64,000 nt of DNA from Arthrobacter sp. NicSoilC5. GTDB lineage: Bacteria; Actinomycetota; Actinomycetes; Actinomycetales; Micrococcaceae. Location of the stretch: NCBI RefSeq assembly GCF_019977395.1, contig NZ_AP024660.1:1736001-1800000 (forward strand), written 5' to 3'. This document shows positions 26,016 to 30,823 of this stretch, in pieces. The position numbers and the translations under genes were made by a program. Every line of letters starts with the position of its first letter. The stretch's first letter is position 1. The notes beneath the pieces were generated by a model. It searched no databases. It had not been told where the DNA came from and saw only the letters and a list, made by a program, of their open reading frames with translations.

Positions 26016-26195
26016 GGCATCAGTCTAGGGTTTCCGCGGGACGCGCCTGCAGGTCCGAACCATGGGCACTTCTCCCCCGTTGCCGCAGTGCGTTCCTGCT
26101 CGCAGGCGGCACCGGCAGGGACTACGCTGATTCGAGACTTGCATTGGGGGTGCAGCGCTGTGCCCACATCGCGTGACGAATTTGAGGGGGACGCC

Positions 26196-26804
26196 GTGGA
26201 CTCGAACCAGAAAGACCCAAAAGAGGAGCCGGAGACCGGGCCTGCACCTGACGGCAGCACTGGCGCCGGCAGCACCGCCAAGCCACCGCCCTGGCAGGTC
26301 CCCAAGCCGGACCTGCGTCCCGAACTGCTCAACGAACCCGTCACCCCCGTGGATCCGTTTGCACGCGAGCGGGAGAAGCAGCTCAACCAGGCCGCTGCCC
26401 GCAAGAAGCGCTCACAGCGGCGCACCGTGGTGGTGGGCCTCGGCGTGACCGCGCTCCTGGCCGGCACCATCACGGCGGTGGTGGCCAGCAATGAGGACGA
26501 CCCCGAGTACGCACAGGTCTGTTTCAACGACGAAACCGGCGAGCGCGTGGCGGACACCAACTGCGACAGTTCCGCCGGCCGCGGTGGCGGCATCTACGCC
26601 TGGTACTTCTACTCCCGCGGGGCGAGCGTTCCGCCCATCGGCCAGAACAGGTCCACCGCACCCAACTTCACCCGCAGCATCCCCACTGGCGCCAAGGCAT
26701 CCACGGGTTACAGCAGCAAGGGCGGCACGGTCAGCCGTGGCGGGTTCGGTTCAAGCGCCAAGAGCGGTTCAAGCGGCGGCGGCGGCAAGGTCTCGGGAGG
26801 CTGA
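26196..26804 (+). CDS. YgiB-like (DUF1190-type) membrane-anchored protein
   Basis: A 202-residue protein. The acidic, Pro-rich N-terminus (1-75) is followed by a basic stretch RKKRSQRR and a single membrane helix (about 88-108). The exposed part has a Cys pair (VCFNDETGERVADTNC) and a Gly/Ser-rich C-terminus with GGTVSRGGFGSSA. The VSRGGFG block matches the C-terminal VTRGGFG of E. coli YgiB, and the next gene is a YgiC homologue, so this is the YgiB-type partner even though it has a transmembrane anchor instead of a lipobox. GTG at 26196 follows GAGGGGG with five-base spacing. Confidence 0.75.
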   Translation: MDSNQKDPKEEPETGPAPDGSTGAGSTAKPPPWQVPKPDLRPELLNEPVTPVDPFAREREKQLNQAAARKKRSQRRTVVVGLGVTALLAGTITAVVASNEDDPEYAQVCFNDETGERVADTNCDSSAGRGGGIYAWYFYSRGASVPPIGQNRSTAPNFTRSIPTGAKASTGYSSKGGTVSRGGFGSSAKSGSSGGGGKVSGG

Positions 26805-26807
26805 GGG

Positions 26808-28019
26808 ATGAAACGGTTGTTGTCTGAGCCCCGGCCGGGCTGGAAGCAGAAGATCGAAGAGCAGGGCCTGGTCTTTTCCACCACCACCATGGATGACGGG
26901 CGCAGGATCGAGTACTGGAACGAATCGGCGTACTACGAGTTCACCATGGACGAGGTGGAAACCCTCGAGCTCGCCGCCGAGGACATGCACCGGATGTGCC
27001 TGGAGGCGGCGAAGTTCCTGGCCACCGGCGCCATGGGCAGCATCGGCATCGGACCCCAGGCCCTGGAGCTGGCAGCGGAATCCCTGCAGGCCGGCGACGT
27101 GGACGTGTACGGCCGGTTCGACTTCATCTACGACGGCCAGGGCGGTCCCGCCAAGATGCTCGAATACAACGCGGACACCCCCACCGGGCTCATCGAGGCC
27201 GCTGTGGCCCAATGGTTCTGGCTGCAGGACGTCCACCCGGAAAAGGACCAGTGGAACGGCATCCACGAGGCCCTGATCCGGCAGTGGAGGAAGTTCCAGT
27301 ACCGCACGGGAATGAGCACGCTGCACGTGGCCCATTCGGAGGTTGAGGAATCCGGGGAGGACTGGATGACCGCCGCCTACATGCGCGACGTCGCCAGCCA
27401 GGCCGGATGGACCACCATCGGCATCAACATGTCCGATATCGGGTGGGACCCCAACCTGAACCGCTTCGTGGACCTGGACAACTTCATGATCAGCACCATC
27501 TTCAAGCTCTACCCCTGGGAGCTGATGATGAAGGAGGAGTTCGGCCCCCGCCTCCTGGAACGGTCCCACAACCCCCGCTGGGTTGAACCGGCCTGGAAAA
27601 TGCTGCTCTCCAACAAGGCCCTGCTCGCCGCACTGTGGCACCTCTACCCCAACCATCCCAACCTGCTGCCGGCGTACCTCACGGACCCGGGGCCGTTGAA
27701 GGAATGGGTGGCCAAGCCCCTGCATGGCCGTGAGGGCGACAACATCCGCATCCACGCGGACGGCCTCAAGCTGGAGCAGCCCGGCGGGTACGGCCGGGAG
27801 GGCTGGTGCTACCAGCAGTACCACCCGCTCCCGGACTTCGACGGCAACCGTCCGGTCCTGGGCCTGTGGGTGGTGGACGGCGAGTCCGTGGGCTGCGGCA
27901 TCCGCGAATCGGACGGGCCGGTCACGGACTACTTCTGCCGCTTTGTGCCCAACACCATTGACGCGCCGGCGCCGCTTTCGGCGGTGGCCGACTCCACCAA
28001 GGCAGGAATCACCTTATGA
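26808..28019 (+). CDS. ygiC: YgiC-type glutathionylspermidine synthase-like ATP-grasp ligase
   Basis: A 403-residue member of the glutathionylspermidine-synthase pre-ATP-grasp family. Shared YgiC blocks are LLSEPRPGWKQKI, LEYNADTPTGLIEA, IFKLYPWELMM, LSNKALLAALW, PNHPNLLPAY, AKPLHGREGDNI and QQYHPLPDF. The Lys of AKPL and acidic residues downstream form the ATP-grasp site. The family joins an acid to an amine with ATP. Actinobacteria generally lack glutathione, so glutathionylspermidine is not the likely product; the real substrates are unknown. It starts three bases after the ygiB-like stop and overlaps the permease start by ATGA. Confidence 0.88.
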   Translation: MKRLLSEPRPGWKQKIEEQGLVFSTTTMDDGRRIEYWNESAYYEFTMDEVETLELAAEDMHRMCLEAAKFLATGAMGSIGIGPQALELAAESLQAGDVDVYGRFDFIYDGQGGPAKMLEYNADTPTGLIEAAVAQWFWLQDVHPEKDQWNGIHEALIRQWRKFQYRTGMSTLHVAHSEVEESGEDWMTAAYMRDVASQAGWTTIGINMSDIGWDPNLNRFVDLDNFMISTIFKLYPWELMMKEEFGPRLLERSHNPRWVEPAWKMLLSNKALLAALWHLYPNHPNLLPAYLTDPGPLKEWVAKPLHGREGDNIRIHADGLKLEQPGGYGREGWCYQQYHPLPDFDGNRPVLGLWVVDGESVGCGIRESDGPVTDYFCRFVPNTIDAPAPLSAVADSTKAGITL

Positions 28020-29509
28020 GCACGGACATTTCGACGGCGGGAAGCCAGGGCGGCGGGGCCGGCACCCCGGTGCCGGCCAAGGGTCTGCGGGCCGGGATCC
28101 TGGACCTGGGCGACTCCGTGATGCTGGGGCTGGCCTCTACCGCCCCGGTGTACTCGCTCGCTGCCACCCTGGGCCTGATTGTTGCCGTCAACGGCAACTA
28201 CACTCCCCTGATCCTGCTGCTGGGCTTCATCCCCGTCCTCTTCATCGCCTACGCCTTCCGCGAGCTCAACAGCGCCATTCCTGACTGCGGCACCACGTTC
28301 ACCTGGTCCCGGCAGGCCTTCGGCCCCTGGGCCGGCTGGCTGGGCGGCTGGGGGGTGGCGCTGGCCGGGATCGTGGTCCTGGCCAACCTGGCGCAGGTGG
28401 CGGGCCAGTACCTGTGGCTGCTGATGGGCGACGGGTCACTGGCACAGAACAAGCTGCTGGTCACCGGAACCGGCCTGCTGTTCATCGTGCTGATGACCCT
28501 GGTGAACTACCGCGGGATCAGGCTGGGCGAGCACGTCCAGCGCGTCCTCACGTATGTCCAGTACATTGCGCTGGGCATCTTTGCGCTGGCCATCGTCATG
28601 CGGATCGTCGGCGGGGCGCCCGAGGGCCAGGCCTTCGACTTCGAATGGTTCAATCCGGTGGGCGCTTTTGCCGACCCCGGCGCCGTGGTGCACGGCGCCC
28701 TCCTTGCCCTGTTCATCTACTGGGGCTGGGACACCTGCCTGGCGGTCAATGAGGAAACCGAGGACCCGTCCAAGACGCCGGGCCGGGGCGCGGTCATCTC
28801 CGCTTTCGTGCTGGTGGCCATCTACGTTTCGGTGGCGCTGCTGGTGATGATGTACGCCACCGTGGGGTCCGAGGGCATCGGCCTGGGCAATGAGGCCAAC
28901 CAGGACGACGTGTTCCTGGCCATGAAGGATGTGGTCCTGGGGCCGTGGGGCTGGCTGATCGTCGTCGCGGTCCTCGCCTCCGTCCTGTCCTCCACGCAGA
29001 CCACCATCCTGCCGACCGCCCGCGGCACCCTGTCCATGGGCGTGCACGGCGCCCTGCCGGCGAAGTTCGGCGAGGTGCACCCGCGCAACCAGACCCCTGG
29101 TTTTTCCACCAAGGTGATGGGTGCCGCCGCGGCCGCCTACTACGTGGCCATGAGCTTCCTCAGTGAAAATCTGCTGGCGGACTCCATCAGCGCCATCAGC
29201 CTTTTTATCGCGTTCTACTACGCCCTGACCGGCTTCGCCTGCTTCTGGTACTTTCGCGGAACGCTCAGGGACTCGGCCCGCAACCTCTGGTTCCGCGGCA
29301 TCCTCCCGCTCGCGGGCGCGCTGCTGCTGACCGCCGCGTTCTTCATCTCGGCCGTCCAGATGTGGGACGCGGCGTACGGCGATACCCGGATCTTCGGCGT
29401 CGGCGGTGCCTTCGTGAGCGGTGTGGTGCTCCTGGCCCTCGGTGTGGTGCTCGCCGCCGTCTGCCGGTTCCTGCCCGCCACCCGCGGCTACTTCCTGGTA
29501 AAGAAATGA
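28016..29509 (+). CDS. APC superfamily amino-acid/polyamine permease
   Basis: A 497-residue permease with 12 predicted helices. The first helix region is LGDSVMLGLASTAPVYSLAATLG, the second holds LNSAIPDCGTTFTW, and NEETEDPSKTPGRGAVIS is a conserved loop. Members import amino acids or polyamines by proton symport. Translational coupling to the YgiC-like ligase through ATGA at 28016-28019 suggests that it supplies the amine or amino-acid substrate of the ligase; that link is an inference. Confidence 0.9.
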   Translation: MSTDISTAGSQGGGAGTPVPAKGLRAGILDLGDSVMLGLASTAPVYSLAATLGLIVAVNGNYTPLILLLGFIPVLFIAYAFRELNSAIPDCGTTFTWSRQAFGPWAGWLGGWGVALAGIVVLANLAQVAGQYLWLLMGDGSLAQNKLLVTGTGLLFIVLMTLVNYRGIRLGEHVQRVLTYVQYIALGIFALAIVMRIVGGAPEGQAFDFEWFNPVGAFADPGAVVHGALLALFIYWGWDTCLAVNEETEDPSKTPGRGAVISAFVLVAIYVSVALLVMMYATVGSEGIGLGNEANQDDVFLAMKDVVLGPWGWLIVVAVLASVLSSTQTTILPTARGTLSMGVHGALPAKFGEVHPRNQTPGFSTKVMGAAAAAYYVAMSFLSENLLADSISAISLFIAFYYALTGFACFWYFRGTLRDSARNLWFRGILPLAGALLLTAAFFISAVQMWDAAYGDTRIFGVGGAFVSGVVLLALGVVLAAVCRFLPATRGYFLVKK

Positions 29510-29519
29510 CGGGTAAAAA

Positions 29520-30749
29520 ATGACTGCTGAAGAGATGCCCCGTGAAGAGATGCGCGGTGAAGAACGTGAAGCCGTGACCGCGGGCCCGTCCGACATCCTG
29601 GACCTCGACTCCCTGCTGTCCGCGGAGGAACTGGAGCTCCGGCAGAAAGTCCGCGACTTCACCCACCAGCGGATCAAGCCGGAGATCGCCCGCTGGTACG
29701 AGGACGCCGTCTTCCCCCTGGAACTGGCGACGGAACTGGGTGAGCTGGGCGTCCTGGGGATGCACCTGGAGGGCTACGGCTGCCCGGGCCGGTCCGCCGT
29801 CGAGTACGGACTGGCATCCATGGAACTGGAAGCCGGGGACTCCGGCATCCGCACGTTCGTGTCCGTCCAGGGTTCGCTGGCCATGACCGCCATCCACACC
29901 TGGGGCTCCGAGGAGCAGAAGCAGGAGTGGCTGCCCCGCATGGCCGCCGGCGAGGTCATCGGGTGCTTCGCTTTGACCGAACCCACGGCAGGCTCGGACC
30001 CCGCCTCCATGGCCACCTCCGCGGTCCGGGACGGCAGCGGGGACGACGCCGGCTGGGTGCTCAACGGCACCAAGCGCTGGATCGGGCTGGCCTCCGTGGC
30101 CGGCGTCATGGTGGTGTGGGCCATGACGGACGACGGCGTGCACGGCTTCCTGGTGCCGGCCGGAACCCCCGGCGTGACGGCCACGCCCATCCGGCAGAAG
30201 CTGTCCATGCGCGCCTCCATCCAGTGCGACGTGGTGTTCGACGACGTCCGGCTGGGTCCCGAGGCCCTGCTCCCGGCTGCGCGCGGGCTCCGCGGCCCGT
30301 TCACCTGCCTTAACGAGGCCCGGTACGGGATCGCATGGGGTGCCATGGGCGCCGCCCGTGATTCTTATGAGGCAGCGCTGGAATACTCGCTGGGACGGCT
30401 GCAGTTCGGCAAGCCGCTGGCGGGCTACCAGCTCACGCAGCAGAAGCTGGTGGACATGCTGGTGGAGATCCAGAAGGGCACCCTGCTGGCGCTGCACCTG
30501 GGCCGGCTCAAGGACGCGGGGACTATCCGGCCCGAGCAGATCTCGCTGGGCAAGCTGAACAACGTCCGCGAGGCCATCAGGATCGCCCGCGAGGCCCGCT
30601 CCATCCTGGGCGGCAACGGCATCACCACCGACTACTCCCCCCTGCGGCACGCCGCGAACCTTGAATCCGTGCGGACGTATGAGGGCACCGACGAGGTGCA
30701 TACCCTGGTCCTGGGCCGGCACATCACGGGCCTCGACGCCTTCCACTGA
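29520..30749 (+). CDS. acyl-CoA dehydrogenase, glutaryl-CoA dehydrogenase-like
   Basis: A 409-residue FAD enzyme. The conserved blocks are CFALTEPTAGSDPASM (flavin loop), WVLNGTKRWIGLAS, QFGKPLAGYQLTQQKL, and YEGTDEVHTLVLGRHITG with the catalytic Glu. The NGTKRWIG and EGT pattern fits the glutaryl-CoA dehydrogenase branch (ACAD). It starts 10 bases after the permease, in the same operon. If the permease imports lysine, cadaverine or a related compound, a glutaryl-CoA-type oxidation is a sensible partner, but no other genes of that route are here. Several in-frame ATGs near the start make the N-terminus uncertain. Confidence 0.9.
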   Translation: MTAEEMPREEMRGEEREAVTAGPSDILDLDSLLSAEELELRQKVRDFTHQRIKPEIARWYEDAVFPLELATELGELGVLGMHLEGYGCPGRSAVEYGLASMELEAGDSGIRTFVSVQGSLAMTAIHTWGSEEQKQEWLPRMAAGEVIGCFALTEPTAGSDPASMATSAVRDGSGDDAGWVLNGTKRWIGLASVAGVMVVWAMTDDGVHGFLVPAGTPGVTATPIRQKLSMRASIQCDVVFDDVRLGPEALLPAARGLRGPFTCLNEARYGIAWGAMGAARDSYEAALEYSLGRLQFGKPLAGYQLTQQKLVDMLVEIQKGTLLALHLGRLKDAGTIRPEQISLGKLNNVREAIRIAREARSILGGNGITTDYSPLRHAANLESVRTYEGTDEVHTLVLGRHITGLDAFH

Positions 30750-30755
30750 CCCCTC

Positions 30756-30823
30756 CCCCAACTGGGTAGCGCGAAGTGCCGTTTTGACTCCTCAAAACGG
30801 CACCTCGCGCTACCCAGCTGGGG
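30756..30823 (+). repeat. REP-like intergenic palindrome, copy 2
   Basis: 32-base arms with two mismatches (starting CCCCAACTGGGTAGCG) around a four-base loop, between the convergent acyl-CoA dehydrogenase and SDR genes. It matches the 12258 palindrome at 18 of 23 core positions and shares the flank GCTACCCAG[CT]TGGG. It may also terminate transcription. Confidence 0.8.

Follow-up and report, generated by a model that had tools for sequence, protein, structure and literature searches.

A YgiB-YgiC-APC permease cassette in Arthrobacter and a conserved glycine tail as candidate substrate of its ATP-grasp ligase

Genes of the locus and the YgiC-type ligase

We analysed a 64,000-nucleotide stretch of Arthrobacter sp. 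NicSoilC5 (the window; positions 1736001-1800000 of a one-contig 4.69 Mb genome whose nearest named relatives are Pseudarthrobacter and Arthrobacter) and in it a gene cassette for a YgiB-like anchored protein, a YgiC-type ATP-grasp ligase and an APC-superfamily permease, followed by a gene for an acyl-CoA dehydrogenase. A reading made from the letters alone (the sequence-only reading) had described these four frames and their spacing, and both were borne out by the coordinates and by reading of the sequence. In window coordinates the genes are:

26196..26804, + strand: YgiB-like anchored protein, 202 amino acids from a GTG start at 26196
26808..28019, + strand: YgiC-type ATP-grasp amide ligase (PF03738), 403 amino acids
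28016..29509, + strand: APC-superfamily permease, proposed amine or amino-acid importer, 497 amino acids
29520..30749, + strand: glutaryl-CoA-dehydrogenase-like acyl-CoA dehydrogenase, judged a neighbour outside the cassette

Three bases (26805-26807) separate the YgiB and YgiC frames, the YgiC and permease frames overlap by ATGA at 28016-28019, and 10 bases lie between the permease and the dehydrogenase. Longer in-frame starts are possible for the YgiB-like frame, for example at 26088. A promoter scan found 0 promoters against 0.4 expected, a scan made uninformative by the GC-rich genome.

The ligase was the only PF03738 match in a profile search of the source genome, and it covered the whole GSP_synth profile (positions 1-371 of 371; 493.8 bits against a cut-off of 29.3; E 4.7e-148). 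The nearest solved structures by sequence were E. coli YgiC (7uk8, E 6e-80, 39% identity) and YjfC (7uk6, E 1e-67, 38% identity), followed by trypanothione synthetase (TryS) and glutathionylspermidine synthetase (GspS, E. coli gss). RefSeq names both E. coli proteins peptide--spermidine ligase, following Pederick et al. 2023 as that paper is cited by others, and this naming puts the earlier statement that YgiB/YgiC pairs have no settled function out of date. The window YgiC scored 98.8 bits against the NCBIfam equivalog for bifunctional glutathionylspermidine synthetase, whose cut-off is 882.

We aligned E. coli GspS with 73 distinct YgiC proteins (75% identity cut), drawn from a redundant set of 273 loci with a match to YgiC, of which 269 could be used and in which several genomes are represented more than once. 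The GspS positions R316, D318, E330, N332, K498, K533 and R598, which we took to be catalytic and whose roles we checked through work on Leishmania major TryS, aligned to YgiC R103, D105, E119, N121, K270, K303 and R366, and this set was kept in 72-73 of the 73 rows. In the modelled L. major enzyme, as described in the available text of PMC3581523, Arg328 contacts the glycyl carboxylate and the gamma-phosphate, Asp330, Glu344 and Asn346 are assigned to Mg and Ser351 to the glycyl carboxylate, Glu355 and Glu407 hold spermidine, and the glutamyl end of glutathione is assigned to Glu408, Asp403, Thr457, Met459, Ser462 and Ser571. Read by hand, the alignment placed Arg328 on YgiC R103, Asp330/Glu344/Asn346 on D105/E119/N121 and Ser351 on T126 (Thr in 61 of the 73 rows), and the two spermidine acids fell on E130 and E184, each at least 97% conserved. 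The residues that bind the glutamyl end were not found as a set in the window YgiC: Glu408, Thr457, Met459 and Ser462 fell on D185, L234, P236 and L239. GspS T441 and T446 were not conserved in the YgiC rows, the E392 position was Asp, and R538 was kept in 60 of 73. By its sequence the protein is a genuine YgiC/GspS-type ATP-grasp ligase, and the full-length PF03738 match and kept catalytic residues agree with its earlier assignment to the glutathionylspermidine-synthase kind. Residues for activating a C-terminal carboxylate and for binding a polyamine are retained, with most of the compared positions for the far end of glutathione replaced.

The anchored protein and its glycine tail

The YgiB-like protein has a predicted layout of a cytoplasmic N-terminal region, one membrane span, a small domain and a flexible tail, with these features:

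26424..26489, + strand: membrane span of YgiB, residues 77-98 (by eye)
26730..26750, + strand: VSRGGFG motif of YgiB, residues 179-185 (from the sequence and alignments)
26796..26801, + strand: Gly-Gly end of YgiB, whose C-terminal carboxylate is the proposed acceptor for YgiC (from the sequence and tail statistics)

The flanks of the span, basic KKRSQRR on its N side and acidic residues on its C side, predict a position outside the cell for the C-terminal domain. Many relatives showed a lipobox-like Cys at the span in the alignments. The small domain holds two invariant cysteines, and a 37-row YgiB alignment was invariant at C109, R117, D120, C123, G176, G182, G183 and F184. After VSRGGFG come 17 further residues, the last two being Gly-Gly. 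In the AlphaFold2 model the 10-residue means of the predicted local distance difference test (pLDDT) were 76-95 over residues 101-180 and the tail (183-197) stood under 50, for an overall mean of only 67.7; the tail is thus predicted to be disordered. A Foldseek search with this model against PDB folds gave no match at E <= 0.001.

By family profile the YgiB label fits only weakly: DUF1190 (PF06693) gave 15.0 bits (E 0.032), below its cut-off of 22, in a partial match of residues 145-193 to profile positions 109-157 only. The protein does answer to our own description of a YgiB, being anchored, adjoining YgiC and carrying an RGGFG tail that ends in Gly. When profiles of actinobacterial and proteobacterial YgiB proteins were compared by hhalign, 28 columns aligned, all in the anchor region. 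The unalignable middle domains of the two groups make their common tail more striking, with common ancestry unproven.

We searched for a GGFG-like motif in the last 90 residues of frames near YgiC and found such a frame in 257 of the 273 loci, 201 of the 257 being distinct. To these we added frames from 8 motif-variant loci, and clustering of the set at 60% identity gave 67 clusters; the frames were taken without one-by-one curation and some are possibly wrong. With expected numbers drawn from the pair frequency in each tail, the results showed a GG end in 46 of 67 cluster representatives (7.2 expected) and a GG or GS end in 60 of 67 (10.6 expected). The majority ends of the clusters were 44 GG, 15 GS, 4 SS and one each of GA, SG, HA and CG. 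As this first choice of frames used a motif within the tail itself, the choice was repeated by adjacency and codon composition alone, and a GG end was found in 38 of 70 upstream frames against 6.1 expected; six of the frames not ending in GG were DUF350 genes between YgiB and YgiC. As a control we took 85 further frames called in these loci, each having 6 or more Gly among its last 30 residues (an earlier glycine/serine-rich definition caught zero frames), and only 2 of these had a GG end, against 5.2 expected.

E. coli YgiB ends in SMGG and YjfM in HWGG. In ten aligned proteobacterial DUF1190 proteins, those of E. coli K-12 plus plasmid proteins annotated DUF1190 (unannotated frames were omitted, including that of L261, which ends in HA), the last residue was Gly in 10/10 and the penultimate in 9/10, with a linker of varying length. 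From Arthrobacter to E. coli, the tail has the same build of RGGFG, a short linker and mostly a C-terminal Gly-Gly, and an RGGFG-like motif with C-terminal Gly-Gly occurred beside peptide-polyamine ligases of Actinobacteria, of Proteobacteria and of Deinococcus, as well as, it seems, on a plasmid of Bacillus.

The permease and the three-gene unit

The permease matched AA_permease_2 (100.6 bits, E 1.2e-28) and AA_permease (79.1 bits), both over cut-off. For its substrate subfamily, all 10 NCBIfam matches were far below cut-off, the best being TIGR00909 with 111.3 against 556.8. Linkage was measured in the window plus the best 80 of 106 loci found in species-representative genomes, 75 of which had at least 8 kb downstream and at least 4 kb upstream. 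The permease adjoined YgiC in at least 71 of these 75 loci, a lower bound since some APC matches were broken. Within the family, an APC protein of at least 50% identity, a threshold set after the list was seen, was present in 19 of 29 genomes with YgiC versus 5 of 120 without it, and among the 18 genomes with a YgiC of at least 67% identity it adjoined that gene in 16 (exceptions G031 and G071). Two Arthrobacter-type plasmids carry YgiB-YgiC-APC, with no dehydrogenase within 6 kb flanks, and at the plasmid locus L263 an ion channel follows the permease. The arrangement goes beyond chance, because frames with the tail motif accompany YgiC in 257 of 273 loci and the permease is kept beside YgiC in close relatives. 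The cassette is three genes, YgiB-YgiC-APC, and to this extent the linkage named by the sequence-only reading was confirmed.

The near APC homologue in G031 (L293 4979-7761) overlaps a saccharopine-dehydrogenase-like gene (Pfam), as does the one in G089 (L295 4352-7389; by eye). This neighbour is distantly like carboxynorspermidine synthase, far under the cut-off of that family, and is a hint only.

PF03738 was matched in 26 of 396 genomes sampled across the phylum; in the class the figure was 90 of 394 and in the order 40 of 396. Within the family, 29 of 149 genomes matched the window YgiC protein. DUF350 stood beside 37 of the 73 distinct YgiC rows, a count that, like that of APC neighbours, includes stretches with only a 1.5 kb flank; the source genome had no DUF350 match over cut-off. 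A tree of the 73 rows placed all six that are labelled APC downstream in a single group (100/99). The branches around this group are actinobacterial and mostly carry DUF350, and the group also holds L015, L021 and L023, which have no APC label. The downstream APC of L020 and L246 is only 28% identical to that of the window. A second APC linkage was seen in another actinobacterial family, where L239 and L240 have the order APC>YgiB>DUF350>YgiC with an APC of 38% identity; L217 has the same order as far as its stretch reaches, and L238, L241 and L242 have DUF350 and no APC within the available stretch. A plain swap of APC for DUF350 was ruled out, since both occur together in L239 and L240. Distant GspS-family genes also follow frames with Ser/Gly-rich tails on a Bacillus plasmid (L272), a Brevibacillus plasmid (L270) and a cyanobacterial plasmid (L271), where the tails end in GFGG, GAGS and GSSS, respectively.

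Proposed reaction, alternatives and known systems

We propose, at a probability of about 0.5, that the cassette is an actinobacterial, three-gene form of the peptide-polyamine ligase module known as YgiB/YgiC (YjfM/YjfC), in which YgiC ligates an amine supplied by the permease to the C-terminus of YgiB. YgiC would phosphorylate the C-terminal carboxylate of a peptide and then ligate the amine, in the way that glutathionylspermidine synthetase acts on the glycine of glutathione. The natural acid substrate would most likely be the free Gly-Gly end of YgiB (Gly-Ser in some lineages), recognised via the RGGFG tail. This is the simplest reading because the free C-terminus of the ligase's neighbour, mostly Gly and otherwise Ser, is the most strictly placed feature of that protein. 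Cytoplasmic YgiC would act before the C-terminal part of YgiB crosses the membrane, and YgiB would end up outside with an amine-capped tail. The permease would most likely be the source of the amine, because the source genome showed no S-adenosylmethionine (AdoMet) decarboxylase or spermidine synthase over family cut-offs. In its fullest form, which we hold tentatively and at somewhat short of an even chance, this would be a protein-tail conjugation system that recognises the RGGFG...Gly-Gly-COOH of anchored YgiB, caps the glycine with a polyamine or diamine and yields an exported cationic C-terminal amide, the amine in Micrococcaceae coming through the cassette's dedicated APC permease.

Several points weigh against this proposal. 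Ligation of YgiB by YgiC is a step that we infer rather than observe directly. The tail of YgiB is predicted outside the membrane while YgiC needs cytoplasmic ATP; with a YgiB topology of N inside and C outside, modification would have to precede translocation, which is the weakest step of the mechanism. A strict diglycine rule fails, as 15 of the 67 clusters end in GS, 4 in SS and others in HA, GA, CG or SG. The glutathione site is not wholly lost, with Asp at the position of TryS Glu408 and GspS R538 kept in 60 of 73 rows. Kinship of the window YgiB to DUF1190 could be demonstrated for the anchor alone and not for the whole protein. An APC permease, window-like or distant, stands beside only 9 of the 73 distinct YgiC rows, so the permease is dispensable for YgiC action; the close relatives G031 and G071 do not have it next door. 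Of 42 actinobacterial genomes with YgiC, 40 had no AdoMet decarboxylase, irrespective of whether APC or DUF350 stood beside YgiC. As this absence is general among the genomes tested, the amine is perhaps not spermidine; it may be putrescine, cadaverine or another, and the permease may be one of several supply routes. On the same count, polyamine auxotrophy was ruled out as the reason for the permease.

A small peptide-amine metabolite made by YgiC from free peptides, with YgiB as an anchor, sensor or chaperone whose GG end serves for binding, would fit the action of GspS and TryS on the tripeptide glutathione (available text of PMC3581523), the naming of E. coli YgiC as a peptide ligase, the predicted position of the tail outside the cell and the few YgiB proteins that end in HA or GA. 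We consider this rather unlikely, because it leaves unexplained a constant last residue, with its free Gly carboxylate, amid a varying linker. The Gly-Gly end could instead signal another enzyme, a protease or a sorting transpeptidase, with YgiC acting elsewhere, and rhombosortase-type sorting transpeptidases are conceivable readers of such an end. A rhomboid protease gene was found at L259 975-1529 (pQBR103), within a yjf-type PspA-DUF2491-DUF350-DUF1190-ligase operon. However, no protease gene lies beside the window cassette (proteases near other loci were not systematically searched for), and the window Gly-Gly is the C-terminus itself with no membrane segment after it, which makes this explanation improbable.

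The sequence-only reading had joined all four genes in a pathway, and a four-gene catabolic operon would have the permease import, YgiC conjugate and the dehydrogenase oxidise a CoA derivative, for example in lysine or polyamine breakdown via glutaryl-CoA. The genes are on the same strand, with the 10-base gap in the window and a tight arrangement in 50 of the 75 loci. The dehydrogenase carries the Acyl-CoA_dh N, M and C domains over Pfam cut-off and was closest to chains named glutaryl-CoA dehydrogenase (3swo, E 7.4e-156). SGYR and TYEGT of 1sir aligned to SGIR and TYEGT of the window protein, in which we take the conserved Arg and the catalytic Glu to have their usual roles, so that both the sequence match and the residues are those expected of a glutaryl-CoA dehydrogenase. 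A further feature follows the gene:

30756..30823 (approximate ends), no strand: strong hairpin in the gap that separates the dehydrogenase from the convergent SDR gene, possible shared transcription end

This hairpin (-60.4 kcal/mol, z -9.3) is long and near-perfect with no clear T run, and it was not among the terminator-like matches in a scan of the region. Given the spacing and this hairpin, the dehydrogenase may be co-transcribed with the cassette in this genus, as in the 50 loci of close relatives where it is tightly adjacent.

The conservation data nevertheless make a four-gene operon highly improbable. Across the 75 loci the dehydrogenase was adjacent to the permease in 50, displaced in 7 and not found in 18, and was thus missing or displaced in 25. 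The upstream neighbours MOSC and DEAD were each present in 71, and the downstream neighbours CGS, CBS, MFS and SDR in 55, 48, 47 and 40, respectively, where the farther ones can drop off the 10 kb flank; by these counts the linkage of the dehydrogenase is about as loose as that of ordinary downstream neighbours. One of the displaced cases (L069) seems to be a broken frame and the other 6 have gaps of 1.3-1.5 kb; in the three of these that were examined (L083, L087 and L093) an opposite-strand gene, GT87 by Pfam in L087, lies between permease and dehydrogenase. The order DEAD-MOSC-dehydrogenase-SDR was found without the cassette in G086 and G028, which have no YgiC match, and the cassette could have been gained or lost there, either direction being possible. 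A dehydrogenase at E <= 1e-150 was present in 21 of 29 family genomes with YgiC and in 87 of 120 without it (hand count), independently of YgiC, and none lay beside the plasmid cassettes. MOSC was absent from 19 dehydrogenase stretches of other genomes, from the APC stretch L311 and from the stretch around a second copy in the source genome. In one of these stretches, L317 (G144, whose cassette is elsewhere in the genome), CGS and CBS stand a few kilobases away from the dehydrogenase. No conserved linkage beyond synteny was found, and we judged the dehydrogenase to be a separate catabolic gene lying next door by happenstance. What stood of the earlier four-gene linkage was therefore YgiB-YgiC-APC: the permease is, in close relatives, a conserved addition to the pair and the dehydrogenase a detachable one, and the joining of an amine to a surface peptide was a plausible guess, whereas the oxidation of a CoA derivative found no support. 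E. coli aidB, an acyl-CoA dehydrogenase homologue after yjfC, was considered as a parallel and judged a coincidence, because the window gene is detachable and resembles glutaryl-CoA dehydrogenases most.

The second glutaryl-CoA-dehydrogenase-like copy of the source genome (78% identity; G000:C1:2381244-2382389, L291 5245-6387) is perhaps the housekeeping one. Near it lie a third dehydrogenase, 40% identical, and, as read by eye, genes for a LysR-type regulator and for a CoA-transferase-like protein.

E. coli YgiB-YgiC and YjfL-YjfM-YjfC share with the window the ligase family and the order of anchored protein then ligase, and E. coli YgiB and YjfM have the same kind of tail, RGG[FY]G ending in Gly-Gly. 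The window differs in the APC permease after YgiC, in a genome without DUF350 over cut-off and in a YgiB middle that is not recognisably DUF1190. Its surroundings also differ, as E. coli ygiBC follows tolC, and yjfC stands between yjfL-yjfM and aidB. GspS and trypanothione synthetase have the reaction-centre residues and the aligned polyamine-binding acids in common with the window YgiC, but the latter has no amidase domain and several glutathione-binding positions are replaced. YgiC does not have the same activity as GspS, according to Sui 2012 as cited in a table of PMC12506659. Operons of PspA/CesT-Tir, DUF350 and K+ channel genes with a GspS-like ATP-grasp are a known module (mSystems 2024, PMC11237479), in which the ligase has a DUF1190 lipoprotein, DUF350 and a K+ channel as partners; the Arthrobacter-type plasmid locus L263, with its ion channel after the permease, is comparable. 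The available text of that paper mentions neither an APC permease in this context nor a diglycine tail. The module is thus already known, as far as that text goes, and ligase activity of the E. coli proteins is in print (Pederick 2023, as cited elsewhere). A literature search found no paper on the APC-linked form or on the YgiB diglycine tail; an earlier mention is possible, as the key 2023 ligase paper, Li 2019, Sui 2012 and a 2009 amidoligase survey lay outside its coverage. The sharing of the YgiB tail from Arthrobacter to E. coli is a new observation.

For the YgiC family and its natural substrate, the tail pattern gives a precise and inexpensive test of protein C-terminal polyamination. 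If true, this would be, to our knowledge, a new kind of bacterial protein modification. The linkage to the permease provides a handle on the amine, and a misleading tie of the cassette to acyl-CoA metabolism is removed.

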